From Halobacteriales archaeon YIM A00013 (lineage in GTDB: Archaea > Halobacteriota > Halobacteria > Halobacteriales > Haloarculaceae), in NCBI GenBank assembly GCA_025041195.1, contig JAKCFM010000002.1, forward strand, positions 372,001 to 436,000: a stretch of DNA of 64,000 nucleotides, read 5' to 3'. Positions 4,260-14,688 of this stretch are shown piece by piece. Numbering within the stretch: the first letter of the stretch is position 1; every line of letters starts with the position of its first letter. Position numbers and translations under genes: made by a program. The notes beneath the pieces were generated by a model. That model had not been told where the DNA came from, searched no databases, and was given only the letters and a program-made list of their open reading frames with translations.

Positions 4260-4487
4260 ATGGAGCTCGACGTTCGAAACACGATCTGTCCACAGACGAC
4301 ACTCGTCGTTCGACGGTGTCTGATGGAACTCGAACCAGGGGAGCAACTTACCGTCCGCGGTGATTATCCACCAGCAGAACGCGCAATCAAACGTGCCTGC
4401 TACCGCCACGGATTCCGCGTCTCCGGTGGCCAAACCGGCGAGCGTGAGTTTGTGCTCACCATCACCATCCCCGAGGAAAGCGAGTGA
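4260..4487 (+). CDS. TusA/SirA-like sulfur (or selenium) carrier with CPQT motif
   Basis: A 75-aa single-domain TusA-like protein. The N-terminal strand MELDVRNTICP places the catalytic cysteine at residue 10. The usual C-P-x-P is here C-P-Q-T. A VRGDYPPAERAIKRACYRHGF segment is shared with the second TusA-like protein at 7949-8200, so the two are paralogues. TusA proteins carry a persulfide to acceptors in thiolation, molybdenum cofactor or selenium metabolism. It is divergent from phnD and convergent with the ridA that follows (8 nt between stops). Its presence in this island suggests a role in delivering sulfur or selenium to the hydroxylase. Confidence 0.8.
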   Translation: MELDVRNTICPQTTLVVRRCLMELEPGEQLTVRGDYPPAERAIKRACYRHGFRVSGGQTGEREFVLTITIPEESE

Positions 4488-6481: not shown

Positions 6482-7084
6482 TCAGTCGCAGTAGCGATCC
6501 AGATCTTGGGGGGTATCAATATCCCGAACAACCCCAGCATCGGTACACTGGACGGCCCCAATGCTGCCACACTGATCGAAGAGCTGTCGGCCGCCACGAT
6601 CTCCCTCGATCGAGACGAGCGCGTCAAACCAGCGTTCTCCAAACAGGACCGGATTCGCTCGCTGTCCGTTGTATTCGGGATAGACGATCGTCGCGTCGGT
6701 CGACTGAAACCGATCGACGAGTCGGTCAAGCGTGGCGGGGTCGACGAACGGCATATCCCCCAGACAGTAGACGAGCCCAGCCCAGCCAGCATCTCGTGCA
6801 ATTTTGGCACCGAGACGGACCGTACTCGCCTGCCCGCTTGCGTAATCCTGGTTGTACCGCACTGTAACAGGACAGGAACGAACCGCCGAAGCGACTGCAC
6901 CCCTTGCAGCACCCGTCACCGCGACAACGGGCGTTGCACTGCTTGCACACGCGATAGCGGTTGTGTGATACACGATCGGTTCCCCCTCGATCGTGGCAAG
7001 CAGTTTGTTCGGAGCACCAAACCGCTGGCTCGTGCCGGCTGCGAGAACGATCGCACCCACCGGTGTTCGTGTTTCCCCACTCAT
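6482..7084 (-). CDS. mocA: Molybdenum cofactor cytidylyltransferase (MocA-like)
   Basis: A 200-aa nucleotidyltransferase of the MobA/MocA family. It has the N-terminal LAAGTSQRFG..K loop (residues 14-27), then YNQDYASGQASTVRLG and a CLGDMPFVD metal-binding segment. MocA attaches CMP to molybdopterin, making the cytosine dinucleotide cofactor used by xanthine-dehydrogenase-family enzymes. Its ATG overlaps the yqeC stop by one base (TAATG), so the two are coupled. Its position between a purine permease and yqeC ties it to the hydroxylase encoded at 11.8-14.7 kb. Confidence 0.88.
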   Translation of the reverse strand: MSGETRTPVGAIVLAAGTSQRFGAPNKLLATIEGEPIVYHTTAIACASSATPVVAVTGAARGAVASAVRSCPVTVRYNQDYASGQASTVRLGAKIARDAGWAGLVYCLGDMPFVDPATLDRLVDRFQSTDATIVYPEYNGQRANPVLFGERWFDALVSIEGDRGGRQLFDQCGSIGAVQCTDAGVVRDIDTPQDLDRYCD

Positions 7085-7860
7085 TATCTCACCCGACTCT
7101 CGGCCTGCTCACCGCCAGTCTCGACCCGCTCAAGATGACCGGTCCGAAACGAGGTGATGAGTCCCCAGTCGAAGACGTCACTCAGCTCGATCGCCGTCCG
7201 CACCACCGATCGGGCGCGACGACACAACGCGTCCGTGTCGGCCTTGTTGACGATTGGAACTGCCGTCATTGTCGGCGTAACGTCAGCACAGCCACCCTGA
7301 GGGCTCGCAAGCAGCGTCCCCATCGCGGTGGGCGTAAGCGGCGCGTCGGTTGATAGCCCAGTGATCGCACTGATGCGTTCGGATCGGTGAATCAGTTCGC
7401 TCTGAATGGGTACGCCGACGGCACGGACCGAAGCGACGACTCCGACGTGAGTGGCCTCGTCGGGAATAACGGGTTCGTGTGGCGCCGGCGCAGTGAGTTC
7501 TTTCTGGCGCGCGCCATCTGCTTTAACAACCAACCAATCGAATCGATTGCGGATGTGATCCGCAGAGAGTGCCGACGGTGGACATCCGTTGAGCTTTGCG
7601 TCGACGCGGTCAGGATTTTCTACGCGCGCGGTAGCGAATGCAACTGGGTGCTCGATAGAATCGGGGAGCGTCGGCGGGGAGCCGACGTGGACGGGCAGTC
7701 CGGACGGAACCGGCATCTTTGTTGTCGTCGTGTATCCCACGCAGTGGCCTCGTCGGGTGCCTTCGTGCGTGAGCTGTCGCATGGCGGTTTTTTTCCCACC
7801 GGCGCCAACGAACGCCACCATCGCTGCAGGGCCGAGGCCAAGCGCAGTCGAGAGCTGCAT
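7084..7860 (-). CDS. yqeC: Selenium-dependent hydroxylase accessory protein YqeC
   Basis: A 258-aa protein of the YqeC family, genetically linked to selenium-dependent molybdenum hydroxylases. A P-loop-like GAGGKKT lies at residues 19-25, a TTTTKM segment follows (residues 44-49), and a WLVVKADGARQKELTAP segment is characteristic of the family. The biochemical activity is not established; a nucleotide-dependent maturation role is usual. It is translationally coupled to mocA and divergent from the TusA-like/selD pair, leaving an 88-nt shared upstream region. Confidence 0.85.
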   Translation of the reverse strand: MQLSTALGLGPAAMVAFVGAGGKKTAMRQLTHEGTRRGHCVGYTTTTKMPVPSGLPVHVGSPPTLPDSIEHPVAFATARVENPDRVDAKLNGCPPSALSADHIRNRFDWLVVKADGARQKELTAPAPHEPVIPDEATHVGVVASVRAVGVPIQSELIHRSERISAITGLSTDAPLTPTAMGTLLASPQGGCADVTPTMTAVPIVNKADTDALCRRARSVVRTAIELSDVFDWGLITSFRTGHLERVETGGEQAESRVR

Positions 7861-7948: not shown

Positions 7949-8200
7949 ATGGCTCGCGTAGACGTGCGCGATGAGATCTGTCCACGACCAGCGCTCCTGG
8001 TCCGCGACGCACTGGAGACAGTGACCGACGACGAATCACTCATCGTCCGCGGCGATTACCCACCCGCAAAACGGAATTTGAAACGACTCTGTTCGAACCA
8101 TGGGTTTGGCGTCACTGAGCGATCAGCCCCGGATGGAGAGTTCGAACTACGGATCGATCCCTCGGACACCGCGATGGAGGCGTCAAATGACAGCCGATGA
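7949..8200 (+). CDS. TusA/SirA-like sulfur/selenium carrier coupled to selD
   Basis: An 83-aa TusA-fold protein with catalytic Cys11 in the canonical C-P-R-P motif (residues 11-14) and an IVRGDYPPAKRNLKRLC segment shared with the paralogue at 4260. The C-terminus runs 14 nt into selD in another frame, so the two are almost certainly co-translated. Orphan selD genes are known to travel with SirA/TusA-like proteins. A likely role is to carry Se or S to or from SelD and the XdhC/YqeB proteins. Confidence 0.85.
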   Translation: MARVDVRDEICPRPALLVRDALETVTDDESLIVRGDYPPAKRNLKRLCSNHGFGVTERSAPDGEFELRIDPSDTAMEASNDSR

Positions 8201-9203
8201 CACACCGGCACTGACGGAGATGGTCGAACGCCACGGCTGCTCGTGTAAAGTTGATGAAAATTCGCTGGAGCAGCTACTCACCGAGACGTCACTTCCGGCC
8301 ACGGCTGCACACGAGCGGACGATCGGGGAAGACGCCGCGGTTCGTCGGCTCTCGAACGGCCGCTTGCTCGTCTCAACAGTGGATTTTTTCACGCCAATTC
8401 TCGACGATCCGTTCGAATTCGGCCAGATCGCCGCCTGTAATGCCGCCAGTGACGCGTTCGCGACCGGCGCAGCTGAAACAGTCGACTGTCTGGTCACACT
8501 CGGTCTCCCGGCCGACCATACGGCCATCGCACCACCAATTCTCGACGGAATGCGCGACGCACTCGCACAGATGGGCGGAGCGATCACTGGCGGCCACACG
8601 ATCGTGTCACCCTGGCCGTTTGCCGGGGGGGCAATCACGGCCACGACCACGGCGGAGCGGTTGTTACGAACCGACGGCGCACGCCCTGGAGAACAGCTCT
8701 ACTGTACGAAACCCCTGGGAATCCAGCCAGCGATGGGCGCAGCCCGGATCGAGGAGCCATCGCTCGTCGAGCAGCTCATTGGGGCCGTCGATCGCCCGAT
8801 CGAAGCGATTCGGGACGACGCCATCGCCTGGATGACAACGCCGAATGCTACTGCGGCGACCGCAATCGCATCGCTAGCAACCGCTGCCACCGACGTAACT
8901 GGGTTCGGTCTCGCCGGCGCTTGTCGATCAATCGCGACGCAGGCGGACGTCGGCATCGTGATCGAGCACCTGCCAGTGATCGAGGGCACACCTGCGCTCG
9001 CAGACCTGTTCGGAGAAGGGCTCAGCGTCGGTGAAACCGCAGAAACCAGTGGTGGACTGCTAGTTTCGGTTCGGCCCAACGATCGGGATGCTGTCGAATC
9101 GGCACTTGCGGAGGCCGGCGTGTTCTACCGAGCAATCGGTCGCGTCACCGACGGCGACGGAGTGCTGTTCGACAGCCCAACGATCGAGCAGATCAGTCAC
9201 TGA
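8187..9203 (+). CDS. selD: Selenide, water dikinase (selenophosphate synthetase)
   Basis: A 338-aa SelD. The catalytic loop HGCSCK (residues 16-21) keeps both cysteines and the lysine of the C-G-C-K motif of bacterial SelD. DFFTPILDDPFEFGQIAA, AGGHTI-like (GGHTIV), TDVTGFGLAG and the C-terminal TSGGLL motifs follow. SelD makes selenophosphate from selenide and ATP. No SelA/SelB, SelU-like or selenocysteine tRNA gene is seen here, so it appears to be an orphan SelD supplying selenium for a labile Mo-hydroxylase cofactor. The 3' end overlaps the convergent XdhC-YqeB gene by 7 nt. Confidence 0.93.
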   Translation: MTADDTPALTEMVERHGCSCKVDENSLEQLLTETSLPATAAHERTIGEDAAVRRLSNGRLLVSTVDFFTPILDDPFEFGQIAACNAASDAFATGAAETVDCLVTLGLPADHTAIAPPILDGMRDALAQMGGAITGGHTIVSPWPFAGGAITATTTAERLLRTDGARPGEQLYCTKPLGIQPAMGAARIEEPSLVEQLIGAVDRPIEAIRDDAIAWMTTPNATAATAIASLATAATDVTGFGLAGACRSIATQADVGIVIEHLPVIEGTPALADLFGEGLSVGETAETSGGLLVSVRPNDRDAVESALAEAGVFYRAIGRVTDGDGVLFDSPTIEQISH

Positions 9204-10780
9204 TCGAGCGCGAGCAGTGCGCTCAACACACCACCGCCGACACAGAGCGCCTTATCGGATATTGTGGCAGGATCGACGTCGTTTCCCCGGGGATCAACAT
9301 CACCGAGTTTCATGCCGGCGTCTACCGTTCGTCCATCTGCGAGCACCCCACGCAGGAGGCCACTGATCTGGGCTTCGACCGGCACGTCCTCGACGAAGCC
9401 AACGACCGTTCCGGCTTCAACGAGCTCGCCGATTTCGGCTGTCGGCTCCCACGCACCCGCTGTCGGCGCACGGAGCACGCGCTCGGTGGTGACGCCGCCG
9501 CGTTCGCCCGGCGTTCCATCAAATGGGTCCGTGGTCCCGTCGTAGTACACCCGACCGAGCTGGTGGCCACGATGGGTTTCGACGACGGCATCGACGTCCT
9601 CACCGGCGGAGAATCCAGGGCCGAGCCCGATCACGTTCGGGGCAGCATCTCGACGGGTTCCGGTGTCAAACCTCCCTTTCGGAAGAATCGCATCCACAAC
9701 GGCGTGCGGAGCGAGCGAGTCAACGCACGAGGCGTCAGGATCCTCTATCACCGGAATTGCACCGTCGACGAGCGTCCGTATGGCACCATCAAGTGAAGTC
9801 ACCCGACGGGCGGTAACACCCCCAACGGTGATTTTGCCCGTATCGATTGCTGTTCCGTACGCCACCAGCCGTCTGACCACCGTCGGCTGCGATTGTTCGG
9901 TGATGACAACAGGAAAGCACGCCTCGTGGAGTCGATAACAGACGCCGCTTGCGAGATCGCCGCCACCACGGACTACAACCAGCTCGTCGAGGCTACACGC
10001 CGTGGCTCGCTCGGGACTGGCGTCGTGGAGATCCATCGTCAGCTCTGCGAGAATCGAGAGCGCGACGTGTTCTGGGCCCGTTCCCCCGAGCGTGAGACCG
10101 ACGGGCGCACGAATCTGCTGGAGGGCACGAGCGGAATAGCCGTCGTCACGCAGGCCGTCCAGGATGTGGGCCGCCTTGGTTTCTGAGGCGACGACGCCAA
10201 GATACCCTGCCGCTCCATCGAGTGCGCTGGCGAGTGCCTCCCTATCGAACGTGCTAGAGCGAGTTGCCACCGCCACGGCCGTCGTTTCGGTGAGTGTCAT
10301 CGCATCCAGTGCGGTGGCGTATCCGTCCATCACGACCGTCACGTCGTCGTCGAATCGCTCGGCTGTGGCGTAGGACTCCCGGTCGTCGATCACGGTGACG
10401 TGATAGCCACACCGAACGGCGAGCGCCGAAAGCGCCACACCGATGTGACCGCCACCCGCGATGACGAGCCGTGGCGGCCGTTCGAGTGGTGTCACCGACA
10501 CCGTCATTGTCCCGCCACAGACCATGCCAGTGTTGCCACCGCGTTCGAGATCGAACGTTCGCAACCCAGGGGCTTCGCCGCCCGAGAGCACGTCACGGGC
10601 GGCCTCAATCGCCAGATGTTCGACGGTTCCCCCACCGATCGTTCCGTGTGTTGACGACTCGCTGACGACCATCGCGTCGCCGACAGACCGCGGCGTCGAG
10701 CCAGCCGTATCGACGATCTGCACCAGTATTTCGGCGCCATTCGTCCGTGATCGGTCGGCGAGTAGCTCTGTGAGCGTCAT
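9197..10780 (-). CDS. yqeB: XdhC-YqeB fusion, Mo/Se cofactor maturation protein
   Basis: A 527-aa two-part protein. Residues 1 to about 255 are XdhC-like: GSTPRSVGDAM, GTIGGGTVE, the GMVCGG loop (85-90) and a Rossmann GGGHIG (109-114). XdhC binds molybdenum cofactor and promotes its sulfuration and insertion. Residues from about 266 to the end match YqeB (EF2563 type): VVVRGGGDLASG, then VVDAILPKG and VIGLGPGF, then a biotinyl-like segment. YqeB is a marker of selenium-dependent molybdenum hydroxylases and is normally a separate protein of about 270 aa. It is the last gene of the minus-strand operon and overlaps the TusB-like gene by 4 nt. Confidence 0.88.
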   Translation of the reverse strand: MTLTELLADRSRTNGAEILVQIVDTAGSTPRSVGDAMVVSESSTHGTIGGGTVEHLAIEAARDVLSGGEAPGLRTFDLERGGNTGMVCGGTMTVSVTPLERPPRLVIAGGGHIGVALSALAVRCGYHVTVIDDRESYATAERFDDDVTVVMDGYATALDAMTLTETTAVAVATRSSTFDREALASALDGAAGYLGVVASETKAAHILDGLRDDGYSARALQQIRAPVGLTLGGTGPEHVALSILAELTMDLHDASPERATACSLDELVVVRGGGDLASGVCYRLHEACFPVVITEQSQPTVVRRLVAYGTAIDTGKITVGGVTARRVTSLDGAIRTLVDGAIPVIEDPDASCVDSLAPHAVVDAILPKGRFDTGTRRDAAPNVIGLGPGFSAGEDVDAVVETHRGHQLGRVYYDGTTDPFDGTPGERGGVTTERVLRAPTAGAWEPTAEIGELVEAGTVVGFVEDVPVEAQISGLLRGVLADGRTVDAGMKLGDVDPRGNDVDPATISDKALCVGGGVLSALLALDQ

Positions 10781-11022
10781 ACGAACGATCGCACCTCGTG
10801 TGATTCGAGCAGGTCGAGCAGCTGATCGTACGCAATAGGCGTGATTTCAGCGCCGAGCGTGACGCCTCGGGCACGAACGTCTGACTCGATGGCGTACAGT
10901 GGCGCGTCAAGATCCGGGGAGAGCTCCACGCCGTCCTGGATGAGAACGACTACCGCAGAGTCGTCCGCTCGCGCCGCTCGTTCTCCGATGGATGCCAACG
11001 GTGTGTCAATCAGGTATAACAT
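10777..11022 (-). CDS. TusB/DsrH-like small protein
   Basis: An 81-aa protein starting MLYLIDTP with an AVVVLIQDGVEL segment, as in TusB/DsrH proteins, the smallest subunits of the TusBCD/DsrEFH sulfur-transfer heterohexamer. It has no cysteine at all, so it would be structural. It lies 2 nt after the TusC-like gene and its end overlaps the XdhC-YqeB start by 4 nt. The assignment rests on size, fold-like pattern and the position in a three-gene D-C-B set. Confidence 0.65.
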   Translation of the reverse strand: MLYLIDTPLASIGERAARADDSAVVVLIQDGVELSPDLDAPLYAIESDVRARGVTLGAEITPIAYDQLLDLLESHEVRSFV

Positions 11023-11024
11023 GG

Positions 11025-11378
11025 TCAGAAATCGAGTGTGCAGTCGGCGTCGTGAATTCGATCGATCACAGCTGGGCCGGGCTCGACACGAAGATCTGGC
11101 GCGATCGAGGATGGCGGGACACCACGACGCTCCATCGCGGCGCGATCGACGATGAGCGTGCCACCAAGTTCAGTAAGCTGTGCGATCTGGTCGCCAAACC
11201 CGAGTGTGTCCCGATCTGCGCTCGAACGGGCACCGTACACGCCATCACCAGTGAAAATCACCGTCACGTCGTGGTGGTCGAAGCCGGCCGCCACACCACG
11301 CGCTCCCCGGAGTCCCTCGCCGGCGTGGATTCTGCCGTGCGGAGATCGCGTCAGCAACACAACAACGTCGCGTTTCAC
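11025..11378 (-). CDS. TusC/DsrF-like protein
   Basis: A 117-aa DsrE-superfamily protein. It has the VVVLLTRSPHGRIHAGEGLRG opening, an HDVTVIFTGDGVY strand and a long regular alpha/beta pattern typical of TusC/DsrF. The only cysteine is near the C-terminus. The start overlaps the TusD-like stop by 4 nt (ATGA). It probably forms a complex with its two neighbours. Confidence 0.7.
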   Translation of the reverse strand: MKRDVVVLLTRSPHGRIHAGEGLRGARGVAAGFDHHDVTVIFTGDGVYGARSSADRDTLGFGDQIAQLTELGGTLIVDRAAMERRGVPPSSIAPDLRVEPGPAVIDRIHDADCTLDF

Positions 11379-11746
11379 AGCGAGATCACCCGATCTGCGC
11401 TGCCGAGTAGCTCCGCAAGATCGCCGAGCAACCCAACCGTCACGCCATCAGGATACGCCGTCTCCCGGTCTATGCCCCGAATATCAACACAGAGACCACA
11501 ACAGATCACGGTCGCGCCTCGGTCTAGCAACGTGCGAAAGGCATCTGCGGGAAGCGGATCGTACGGCGATCCGGGACCGCACTCTGGCTGTGATTGTGTC
11601 TGTACCGGGACGAACGTCCCGTCGAGATACTGAAAATACGTTACCTCGTGTCCGCGGTCGAGTGCCGTGCGGCCCAGTTCGTACGCCGTGTGCCAGCGCT
11701 GGCTGTCGAACGGACCACCCGTGAGCAGTATGCCGAGTGACTCCAT
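11375..11746 (-). CDS. TusD/DsrE-like sulfurtransferase subunit
   Basis: A 123-aa DsrE/TusD-like protein: MESLGILLTGGPFDSQ at the N-terminus, then VTYFQYLDG, and an ATVICCGLCVDIRGI segment with Cys82, Cys83 and Cys86 where TusD carries its persulfide cysteine. In sulfur relay systems TusD accepts sulfur from TusA. Here the presence of two TusA-like proteins and SelD suggests delivery of S or Se to the Mo cofactor. I chose ATG 11746 because it gives the family N-terminus; upstream in-frame starts only add unrelated residues. It begins 49 nt after the hydroxylase large-subunit stop. Confidence 0.75.
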   Translation of the reverse strand: MESLGILLTGGPFDSQRWHTAYELGRTALDRGHEVTYFQYLDGTFVPVQTQSQPECGPGSPYDPLPADAFRTLLDRGATVICCGLCVDIRGIDRETAYPDGVTVGLLGDLAELLGSADRVISL

Positions 11747-11795: not shown

Positions 11796-14198
11796 TCACT
11801 CTGTGAGTTTGTCTCTGAGTGTGGCCGGTGTGATCGGCATGGAACGGATCCGAACGCCGACAGCATCTGCAATCGCATCGCTGAGTGCCGGTGGAACGGT
11901 GTTTGTCGGCACCTCCGCAACCGATTTTGCGCCGTACGGACCGGTCGGCTCGTGTGTTTCGACCAGAATGGCCTCGATCGGTGGCGTTTCGGTTGCACTC
12001 GGAAGGCCGTACTCATCGAACGACTCGACCGTCGCAGCGCCATCCGCACCGACAGCAATGCCGTCGCTGACAGCCAGCTCGTAGCTCATGTGGTTTGCAC
12101 CCTCGATCTGTCCCTCGGCCATGCCGGGGTTGATGGCAACGCCACAGTCGACGGCCACGACGAGCTGGTTGACGGTGAATTCGCCGGTTGTCGTATCGAC
12201 CGTCACGTCGGCGAACTGTGCAGCAAACGGCGGCGGACTCTCGTCCGTACTGTGAGAGCCCGTAGCCATGATATGCTCACGGTCGTCTTCGCCATACATC
12301 GATTCGTAGCCGATATCCTCGAATGTGACAGACTCGCCGGTGGTCTCATGGTGGATGCGGTCGTCCGCAGCGATGAGCGACCCAATCGGCGCATCAAGCA
12401 TGCGCGAGGCCCACTCGAACAGTCGTTCACGAACCTTAGCGGCGGCCTTTCGAACCGCCATGCCGCTGATATACGTGGTCGACGAGGCGTACGCACCGTA
12501 ATCGAACGGCGTCACGTCCGTATCGGAGCTCTTGATGACGATCTTCTCGGGCGAACAGCCAAGCGTTTCGGCGGCGATCTGGACGAACGCCGTATCTGCT
12601 CCCGTCCCGATGTCGACGCCTCCAACGTGGAGGTGGAACGAGCCGTCCTCGTTGAGCATCAGCTGTGCACCGCCGAGTTCATCGCCAGCGACACCAGTGC
12701 CCTGTGCAGAGAGCGCCATCCCAACGCCACGATGGCAGTCCGGATCGTCAGGCTGTTCGATCTCATCCCACCCGATTGCCGCTTTACCGCGCTCGATACA
12801 TTCGTCGAGTCCACACGATCGGATCCGACGTTCTGCGCCCTCACCACCCATCATCCCGGCGATTTCGTCAAGATCACCGACCTCCATGTAGTGGGCTTGT
12901 CTGAACGCGATCGGATCCAGATCGAGATCGCGCGCAACCACATCGAGATGGCCTTCGAGCGCAAGCGTTCCCTGTGGCGCGCCGTAGCCACGCATCGCTC
13001 CCGTCTGGGGGGTGTTTGTGTGGACGATGTCGGCCTCGAACCGCACGTTGGGAACCTTCGAGTAGAGCGGCAGTGGCTTGCTACCAACGTTGCCAGCGAC
13101 CGTCATGCCGTGGCTGCCGTACGCGCCGGTATTCGACAGCGCGTACAGCTCGAGGGCCTCGATAGAGCCATCTTCTGTCACCGCAGACCGAGCACGAACG
13201 CGCATTGGGTGGCGCGATCGCATTGCGCCGAACTCCTCGCTGCGAGACGCTTCATAGAGGACTGGCCGATCAACCGCAAGCGAGCAGGCAAGCGCAATGG
13301 GTTCGATCACCATCGCCTGTTTCCCACCGAATCCACCGCCAACGCGTGGCTTTTTCACGCGAATGTCGCGGATCGGAATGTCGAACAGATGGGCGAGCTG
13401 TCGGCGCGTGTGGTGTGGCACCTGCGTGCTCGTGATGAGAACGTGTCGGTCGTCCTCGTCAGCGTAGGCAAGCGCCGTGTGTTTTTCCACGTTGGCGTGA
13501 GACTGTCTGATCGTCTCCCACTCCGTCTCGTGTACCACACAGTCGTCGCGCTCGAACGCCGATGAAACCGAGCCGAGTTCGCCCTCGATGTGTGCCATCC
13601 GATTGCGATCGTAGTCGTGACCGACGATCTCATTGGCAACCTCGTCGGGCTCGAACAACTGCGGGGCGTCGCTCGAAAACGCGGCGTCTGGATCAACTAC
13701 GTGATCGTACTCCTCGTACGACACGTCGATCGTTTCGGCCGCCCGGTCTGCCGTCGGTTGATCGGCTGCCACGACCGCACAAACGGGGTCGCCGACGTAT
13801 CTGACGTGTTCGTGCAGAACGTGCATATCCCACGGGCTTGGTTCGGGATAGGACTGTCCGGCGCTGGTGTACAGCGACTCCGGAACGACGTCGGAGTCCG
13901 GCGTCAGAACGGCCCAGACGCCGTCAATCGACTCTGCTGTGCTCCGATCGATGTCGAGAACGCGACCGTGGGGGATCTCGCTTCGAACCACCGACACCCG
14001 ACCCACGGATCGAAAGTCGTGGACGAAATCCGCGGTGTAGCGAGCTTCGCCGGTGACCAGCTTTGTGTCGTCGACCTTCTCAACGCGGTTGGAAACCGAA
14101 CTGCGATCTTCGGGCGGCTTTCGGTTGTCTTCGGGTTCGTCCCACTCCAGTGGATGCACCTCCGCGGCCTCCGCCGAACTGTCGGCCGAATTATTCAT
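11796..14198 (-). CDS. Xanthine dehydrogenase family, molybdopterin-binding subunit (XdhD-like)
   Basis: An 800-aa catalytic subunit. The a/b hammerhead domain is in residues 40-170. Mo-cofactor motifs are GGGFGGKQ (287-294), AMRGYGAPQ (401-409), GGVDIGTGADT, the VAVDCGVAINPGMAEGQIEG segment, and near the C-terminus GPYGAKSVAEVP, whose Glu corresponds to the catalytic base. The Q after GGFGGK resembles E. coli XdhD-type enzymes rather than classical XdhA/B. Expected role: hydroxylation of purines, with selenium-dependent maturation predicted from neighbours. It overlaps the [2Fe-2S] subunit gene by 8 nt. No FAD-domain gene adjoins it. Confidence 0.88.
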   Translation of the reverse strand: MNNSADSSAEAAEVHPLEWDEPEDNRKPPEDRSSVSNRVEKVDDTKLVTGEARYTADFVHDFRSVGRVSVVRSEIPHGRVLDIDRSTAESIDGVWAVLTPDSDVVPESLYTSAGQSYPEPSPWDMHVLHEHVRYVGDPVCAVVAADQPTADRAAETIDVSYEEYDHVVDPDAAFSSDAPQLFEPDEVANEIVGHDYDRNRMAHIEGELGSVSSAFERDDCVVHETEWETIRQSHANVEKHTALAYADEDDRHVLITSTQVPHHTRRQLAHLFDIPIRDIRVKKPRVGGGFGGKQAMVIEPIALACSLAVDRPVLYEASRSEEFGAMRSRHPMRVRARSAVTEDGSIEALELYALSNTGAYGSHGMTVAGNVGSKPLPLYSKVPNVRFEADIVHTNTPQTGAMRGYGAPQGTLALEGHLDVVARDLDLDPIAFRQAHYMEVGDLDEIAGMMGGEGAERRIRSCGLDECIERGKAAIGWDEIEQPDDPDCHRGVGMALSAQGTGVAGDELGGAQLMLNEDGSFHLHVGGVDIGTGADTAFVQIAAETLGCSPEKIVIKSSDTDVTPFDYGAYASSTTYISGMAVRKAAAKVRERLFEWASRMLDAPIGSLIAADDRIHHETTGESVTFEDIGYESMYGEDDREHIMATGSHSTDESPPPFAAQFADVTVDTTTGEFTVNQLVVAVDCGVAINPGMAEGQIEGANHMSYELAVSDGIAVGADGAATVESFDEYGLPSATETPPIEAILVETHEPTGPYGAKSVAEVPTNTVPPALSDAIADAVGVRIRSMPITPATLRDKLTE

Positions 14199-14688
14199 CA
14201 GCGATCACTCCATCGGCAGCCTCTGGCTGCGTTCGCAGTCGTTCTGCTGCGTCCAGAATGGCCCGAACGGGCTTTTGATACCCGGTACACCGACAGAGCG
14301 TGTCGTCGATCGCCGCCCGAACGGTTTCAGGCGATGGATCGGGATTCTCCGCAAGCAGTGCGGCGGCCTCGATGATCATTCCGGGAATACAAAACCCACA
14401 CTGGACGGCGTGGTGATCGACAAACGCCTGCTGAATCGGATGCAACGCACCCTGTGTACCGAGCGACTGGACGGTCCGAATCGTGGATCCATCAGCTTCC
14501 AGGGCGTCCATTCCACACGCCATCCGTACCTCATCATCCACGAACACTTTCGAGACACCACAGGTTCCACCGTCACACCCACAGAGGACTTCGGTGTGAC
14601 CGGCTCGTCTGAGTGCTGTTGCCAGCGACTCCGATTCGTCTACGAAAAGCGCTCTCGGGCTGTCATTAATTGTTAGCTCCACATGCAT
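14191..14688 (-). CDS. Xanthine dehydrogenase family [2Fe-2S] subunit with altered N-terminal cluster
   Basis: A 165-aa two-cluster iron-sulfur subunit. The C-terminal cluster is canonical: C97-G-F-C100 and C132-R-C134-T-G-Y. The N-terminal plant-ferredoxin-like cluster normally has C-x4-C-x2-C-x11-C; here it is C38-x4-C43-x2-Ser46-x11-C58, so the third ligand is serine. An extra cysteine, C36, lies two residues upstream. It heads the operon hydroxylase small subunit, large subunit, TusD-, C-, B-like, XdhC-YqeB. The divergent F420 reductase gene starts 176 nt away. Confidence 0.9.
   Translation of the reverse strand: MHVELTINDSPRALFVDESESLATALRRAGHTEVLCGCDGGTCGVSKVFVDDEVRMACGMDALEADGSTIRTVQSLGTQGALHPIQQAFVDHHAVQCGFCIPGMIIEAAALLAENPDPSPETVRAAIDDTLCRCTGYQKPVRAILDAAERLRTQPEAADGVIADE

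Follow-up and report, generated by a model that had tools for sequence, protein, structure and literature searches.

How selenium reaches molybdenum (Mo) hydroxylases has been called the least understood of the routes by which selenium is incorporated, and even its origin from selenophosphate is in question (PMC11448449). In archaea, an orphan-SelD locus has been known since 2008 from plasmid pNG700 of Haloarcula marismortui (PMC2276186, PMC2432076), comprising genes for SelD, a TusA-like protein (pNG7238), an XdhC-YqeB fusion (pNG7241), YqeC, YgfJ, and Mo hydroxylases. We analyzed a locus of the same content in a 64,000-nucleotide stretch of Halobacteriales archaeon YIM A00013 (hereafter the window), which lies on contig C2 of a 3.7-Mb genome in three contigs. 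This is the haloarchaeal orphan-SelD locus of the 2008 papers. An earlier note on this DNA, made from the sequence alone, had called orphan SelD with YqeB/YqeC already known from comparative genomics. Between YqeB and the hydroxylase, however, lie three genes of the DsrE superfamily that those papers leave unmentioned. We found that four small proteins (TusA-, TusD-, TusC-, and TusB-like) are co-inherited with SelD and YqeB, with no exception in the sampled haloarchaea. As judged from sequence, the TusD-, TusC-, and TusB-like trio is a strong candidate for the missing selenium-delivery step to molybdenum enzymes.

What is new beyond the 2008 papers is the haloarchaea-wide co-occurrence and the identity of each subunit. 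In the H. marismortui record, the trio is annotated merely as two DsrE family proteins and one hypothetical protein, and a word search of PMC2276186 returned no DsrE, TusD, pNG7242, or pNG7243, while the TusA-like pNG7238 is already in its table. We found no description of the trio in open-access literature on DsrE/TusBCD with selenium, SelD, or haloarchaea, which is not proof of absence. Therefore, the trio appears to be undescribed so far, whereas the neighboring TusA-like gene is already known.

In the window, the gene for the TusA-like carrier (7949..8200, plus strand; CPRP motif; Pfam TusA, 56.9 bits, over cut-off) overlaps by 14 nucleotides (nt) that of SelD, a selenophosphate synthetase of the Cys form (8187..9203, plus strand; GCSCK motif; TIGR00476, 244 bits, cut-off 125), in agreement with the overlap given in the earlier note. 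On the facing minus strand, downstream of genes for the large and 2Fe-2S subunits of a Mo hydroxylase, are found the genes for TusD/DsrE-like (11375..11746; Pfam DsrE, 58.8 bits, over cut-off), TusC/DsrF-like (11025..11378; Pfam DsrE, 37.7 bits, over cut-off), and TusB/DsrH-like subunits (10777..11022; Pfam DsrH, 27.5 bits, cut-off 24.4), followed by that of the XdhC-YqeB fusion (9197..10780), which joins a Mo-cofactor chaperone to a selenium-cofactor protein (TIGR03309, 331 bits, cut-off 220; XdhC_C, 114 bits). The spacing of −4 nt (TusD/TusC), +2 nt (TusC/TusB), and −4 nt (TusB/XdhC-YqeB) bears out the proposal that the trio, placed after the hydroxylase genes, is translationally coupled to XdhC-YqeB. 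The same order, TusA and SelD facing XdhC-YqeB, TusB, TusC, and TusD, was seen in 22 other genomes, with one extra gene separating SelD and XdhC-YqeB in a single locus (L089). We measured overlaps in 24 loci: the window, one locus in each of the 22 genomes, and that of the H. marismortui record, a duplicate of one of the genomes. Both TusD/TusC and TusB/XdhC-YqeB showed −4 nt in 24/24, while the TusA/SelD gap was variable. With the same order and overlaps present in 22 other genomes, the arrangement in the window is not due to chance. The trio is displaced in one locus only (L107, 9180 bp, from a Halodesulfurarchaeum metagenome-assembled genome), where it lies away from XdhC-YqeB, but trio, XdhC-YqeB, and SelD are still all within 9 kb.

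Translational coupling of the trio to XdhC-YqeB leads us to favor transfer in the downstream direction, towards XdhC-YqeB. The relay might instead act upstream of SelD, gathering reduced selenium supplied by a transporter, by glutathione, or by a desulfurase/selenocysteine lyase and presenting it to SelD, which would then serve YqeB. This would fit with the TusA-like gene adjoining or overlapping selD in the loci measured, with a second TusA-like gene beside a PhnDCE-type transporter, whose H. marismortui homologue was proposed as a selenate carrier (PMC2276186), and with the H. marismortui locus having no annotated selenocysteine lyase, unlike that of Enterococcus faecalis. Nevertheless, we consider an upstream role unlikely, since the trio is coupled to XdhC-YqeB in 24/24 loci and is encoded on the strand opposite selD.

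The trio had been taken for a TusBCD/DsrEFH-type set, and profile matches subunit by subunit agree, with DsrE (twice) and DsrH over the Pfam cut-offs. TusD-like matched DsrE (2hy5_A) and YchN (1jx7), TusC-like matched DsrF (2hy5_B) over almost its full length (E 7.6e-7), and TusB-like matched TM0979 (E 5.6e-8). The predicted structure of TusB-like, with a predicted local distance difference test score (pLDDT) of 89, gave TM0979, TusB (2d1p_C; TM 0.77), and DsrH (2hy5_C) as top fold matches, while that of TusD-like was poor (pLDDT 54) and the fold search from it uninformative. The correspondence of the subunits to DsrE/F/H (TusD/C/B) is one to one. Among 16 members, down to 55% identity, no cysteine of the trio is invariant except Cys83 and Cys86, both in the CGLC motif of TusD-like; alignments of the TusB-like and TusC-like families revealed no conserved cysteine, and TusB-like in the window has no cysteine at all. 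Of the three clustered cysteines (82, 83, and 86) emphasized in the earlier note, Cys83 and Cys86 are thus invariant at the persulfide site, but Cys82, like Cys56, is not conserved, being replaced by Ser or Val in two loci (L100 and L107). The TusD-like protein of L107 is more divergent, keeping CGLC without Cys56 and Cys82. CGLC aligns with the persulfide site of DsrE/TusD and with the CGxC of YedF, and Cys83 falls on what we take to be the active Cys78 of Escherichia coli TusD.

E. coli TusBCD (2d1p) shares with the trio three DsrE-superfamily subunits, the D-C-B order, a TusA partner, and an active cysteine on TusD. In contrast to TusBCD, the trio has CxxC instead of a lone Cys78, scores below all three equivalog cut-offs (29.6/49.2 bits for TusB, 24.5/94.2 for TusC, and 20.7/89.3 for TusD), and comes with neither TusE nor MnmA. 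In the source genome, no MnmA was over cut-off, DsrC/TusE was not found, the best SelB match was 176 bits (cut-off 242), and there was no YbbB; SelA was not searched for. SelD is therefore an orphan by these searches, as noted earlier, and with MnmA, TusE/DsrC, SelB, and YbbB not found, neither tRNA thiolation nor another use of selenium is likely. The idea that the trio is a TusBCD for tRNA 2-thiouridine that happens to sit in the locus draws on family resemblance to TusB, TusC, and TusD, but the scores far below cut-offs and the missing partners already contradict it. In addition, Haloferax makes 2-thiouridine at tRNA position 34 (s2U34) with NcsA, SAMP2, and UbaA (PMC5372739), and the trio is confined to SelD-positive haloarchaea among the Halobacteria described below. 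We therefore rejected this role as scarcely credible.

In DsrEFH complexes, DsrE-Cys78 binds sulfur and DsrH-Cys20 is required in vivo (PMC3397948). Both type I from Allochromatium (2hy5) and type II from cable bacteria (PMC13293266) share with the trio a TusA partner and a persulfide site on DsrE, and type I, which we compared, also shows similarity subunit by subunit. Unlike DsrEFH, the haloarchaeal set has no DsrC and is linked to selD/yqeB, and alignment of the TusB-like family revealed no counterpart of DsrH-Cys20. With regard to type II traits, tusA is syntenic, and no yeeE/yedE is annotated in the H. marismortui stretch, where no sulfur-oxidation genes are annotated either.

How tightly the trio is bound to selenium genes was seen in 292 Halobacteria genomes, with SelD and YqeB counted over cut-off and TusD-like at E < 1e-48. 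Each of the three was found in 23/292 genomes, and these are the identical 23, so that TusD-like is present in 23/23 genomes with SelD and YqeB and in 0/269 others; the next-best TusD-like match (E 1e-10) is a remnant. Inside Halobacteria, this supports the notion that the trio goes with selD/yqeB, not with MnmA or sulfur oxidation. The 23 genomes represent six genera, including Haloarcula, in four families, and in every such genus other sampled members are without the set. Of the 292 genomes, 120 encode Mo hydroxylases (MoCoBD_1), including all 23, and the 97 others have no SelD, YqeB, or TusD-like; within these 120 genomes, Fisher's test gave 4e-25, uncorrected for phylogeny. Since 97 hydroxylase genomes are without the set, it tracks selenium and not Mo hydroxylases as such. 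The XdhC half of the fusion comes from a family that handles the sulfurated Mo cofactor. It is conceivable, on that account, that a sulfur relay generates the sulfurated (Mo=S) form of the cofactor, or strips that sulfur, before selenium replaces it, and the DsrEFH/TusBCD complexes studied biochemically do carry sulfur (PMC3397948, PMC13293266). That 97 haloarchaeal Mo hydroxylase genomes manage without the trio makes this distinctly unlikely in our view.

A scan of 84,980 species returned 20 loci, every one from Halobacteria, and in 19 of them the trio, SelD, and XdhC-YqeB were all on the stretch retrieved. The 20th, on contig_102 of Natronococcus jeotgali (L110, about 10001-10130), has a 34-residue TusD-like stump followed by an XdhC-like GTIGGGT stretch, a remnant whose sequence is consistent with an internal deletion. 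The genome holding this contig (G130) has no true SelD or YqeB over cut-off; because the stump stands there without them, the locus seems to have decayed as a unit. In the plasmid collection, SelD and TusD-, TusC-, and TusB-like were all found in the same 15 haloarchaeal records. Many loci being on plasmids or secondary replicons, the trio might be a passenger kept through shared plasmid or island inheritance, with no role in selenium metabolism. This is very improbable, since YgfJ, Rid, PhnDCE, NCS2, and a deaminase differ from locus to locus but the trio always stays, and L107 keeps it although it has moved from XdhC-YqeB. Two records filed as plasmids (NZ_CP149720.1 and NZ_CP154629.1) look chromosomal (rpsF-ssb-rpsR; 2.6 Mb). 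In Haloarcula sp. CBA1115 (NZ_CP010530.1, 285345-286345), the selD match is split in two and no gene is annotated there, possibly owing to a frameshift or sequencing error.

Outside haloarchaea, we found DsrH-like proteins in 35 further genomes from the Halobacteriota phylum, none of which (0/35) has SelD over cut-off. Three such loci that we inspected (L121, L124, and L130) each encode a trio in the order D-C-B, in which CARC or CPRC takes the place of CGLC; in L124 and L130, the gene preceding the set encodes a protein of which one end is cysteine-rich and iron-sulfur-like. Profiles of haloarchaeal and other Halobacteriota subunits pair D with D (E 3e-22), C with C (E 1.5e-7), and B with B (E 2.6e-7), off-diagonal matches being far weaker. 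These CxxC-type DsrEFH sets are the closest relatives found but, unlike the haloarchaeal trio, are without true SelD. Sequence comparison thus places the haloarchaeal trio as one branch within a broader archaeal CxxC-DsrEFH family, with the selenium linkage confined to that branch. The reading of the set as dedicated to SelD therefore holds inside Halobacteria, where the trio is SelD-bound, but not for the wider family, given the 35 DsrH-bearing genomes without true SelD.

Bacterial selD loci resemble the haloarchaeal one in composition, since in both lineages a CPxP protein and a CGxC protein lie beside selD. In bacteria, the two are fused in YedF (TIGR03527), whose TusA domain has CPxP and whose DsrE domain has CGxC, and which is encoded next to selD. 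The E. faecalis plasmid operon for the selenium cofactor (xdhC, xdh, mocA, sclA, selD, yedF, DUF3343, yqeC, yqeB) places yedF together with yqeC and yqeB. In haloarchaea, by contrast, the domains are on separate genes, while YedF has no TusC/TusB partners and is reported absent from archaea (PMC5322559). The best NCBIfam match of the TusA-like protein is the N-domain of YedF, at 37.6 bits below the TIGR03527 cut-off of 110. Profiles matched between TusA-like and the YedF N-domain (E 1e-10) and between TusD-like and the YedF DsrE domain (E 2e-6), with no cross-pair match. We nevertheless rejected a split YedF, as the latter match is unspecific (E 9e-8 for single-gene paralogues), and make no claim of common descent: the sequences suggest only similar composition. 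TusB-like and DUF3343 are both small and beside selD genes, but they showed no profile match, and this equivalence was also rejected. As a side observation, the 21-kb Terrisporobacter glycolicus plasmid pTG1 (L114) encodes selD, selA, selB, a selenium LysR regulator, a class V aminotransferase, and DUF3343, a compact and possibly portable selenocysteine set.

The likeness to YedF also bears on a redox or protective role, in which CGLC would reduce selenium intermediates or hold toxic selenide with no hand-over to the cofactor. CGxC is a redox-type motif, and YedF was proposed as a selenium redox/detoxification protein (PMC5322559). However, three subunits strictly coupled to XdhC-YqeB exceed the needs of a redox protein, and haloarchaea already have single-gene CGTC DsrE proteins. 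We therefore regard such a role as improbable.

Weighing these alternatives, we consider it most likely that the trio supplies the Mo cofactor on XdhC-YqeB with selenium (or sulfur). What is observed is the gene content, the invariant CGLC, the subunit identities, the strict co-inheritance with SelD and YqeB, and the lack of tRNA-thiolation partners; from this we infer complex formation, the chemistry, with selenium rather than sulfur as cargo, and the direction of transfer. In the mechanism that we propose, the three DsrE-superfamily proteins would assemble into a heterocomplex in which each trimer has a single active site, CGLC in TusD-like. SelD would produce selenophosphate, and selenium would be held as a protein-bound selenopersulfide on the CPxP cysteine of the TusA-like protein and/or on Cys83 of TusD-like, where Cys86 may resolve it. 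The complex would then deliver selenium to the Mo cofactor on XdhC-YqeB, which would mature the hydroxylase encoded upstream by insertion of the selenium cofactor. As precedents, sulfur transfer from TusA to DsrEFH on the equivalent cysteine was reported in vitro and is reversible (PMC13293266), Methanococcus maripaludis TusAD transcripts go up about 4.5 log2 under selenium depletion (PMC11097638), and DsrE-like selenoproteins with UxxC are known (PMC9312934, PMC13188914).

Several points weigh against this mechanism. The relay function at this locus is a proposal from sequence, and the co-occurrence p-values are uncorrected for phylogeny. The occurrence of CxxC-DsrEFH relatives in archaea without true SelD means that the family as such has no specificity for selenium. 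CGxC is common in DsrE proteins, and haloarchaeal single-gene CGTC DsrE paralogues fit the YedF DsrE domain better (E 9e-8) than TusD-like does. Finally, bacteria build the selenium cofactor without an adjacent TusBCD set, E. faecalis having YedF and DUF3343. On balance, that a TusBCD/DsrEFH-type complex and the TusA-like protein act together in the selenium-cofactor pathway as a chalcogen relay, feeding the Mo cofactor on XdhC-YqeB, seems to us an evenly poised proposition. More tentatively, a haloarchaeal TusBCD/DsrEFH-type complex may have been converted to a dedicated selenium relay, with the CGLC selenopersulfide passing straight to the Mo cofactor on XdhC-YqeB. If true, no carrier for selenium insertion into Mo hydroxylases would have been identified earlier, and a sulfur relay would have been retargeted to selenium. 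With its single invariant CxxC site, the set is a concrete, mutable candidate for the transfer step. The observations of the earlier note are confirmed, and its interpretation, delivery of S or Se by the trio to the Mo cofactor, is partly supported and would follow from sequence by inference.

The remaining genes of the locus complete the picture. The Mo hydroxylase large subunit (11796..14198, minus strand) is of the xanthine dehydrogenase type (MoCoBD_1, 229 bits; MoCoBD_2, 219 bits; XdhA model, 649 bits, below the equivalog cut-off) and is likely the selenium-cofactor enzyme of the locus. Its 2Fe-2S subunit (14191..14688, minus strand) was assigned from sequence, the H. marismortui homologues being annotated as (2Fe-2S)-binding proteins. 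YqeC, a selenium-cofactor protein (7084..7860, minus strand; TIGR03172, 164 bits, cut-off 73), is, like SelD and YqeB (244 and 331 bits), over its curated NCBIfam cut-off. A YgfJ/MocA-like Mo cofactor cytidylyltransferase (6482..7084, minus strand) scores 138.6 bits with TIGR03310, below the cut-off of 186, and 120 bits with NTP_transf_3. A scan for sigma-70 promoters returned no match, the sigma-70 consensus being uninformative for archaea. Cys18 of SelD is kept in 26/27 aligned sequences, and C11, P12, P14, and C48 of the TusA-like protein are invariant in 10 homologues. The second TusA-like protein (4260..4487, plus strand; Pfam TusA, 50.6 bits) has CPQT replacing CPxP; its gene is divergent from the PhnDCE-type transporter, and only the sister species (L090/L091) was found to have a positional equivalent. 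These two are the only TusA proteins of the source genome, both within the selD locus, and another TusA-like copy is present in locus L096. The nearest named relative found is Actinarchaeum halophilum, whose chromosome 2 encodes a TusD-like protein with 94% identity. A third DsrE protein of the source genome (G000:C2:133983-134321, L003) is encoded by a single gene, has CACG at the cysteine site, and lies near a permease-like gene and a gene for a CDGSH-type protein.

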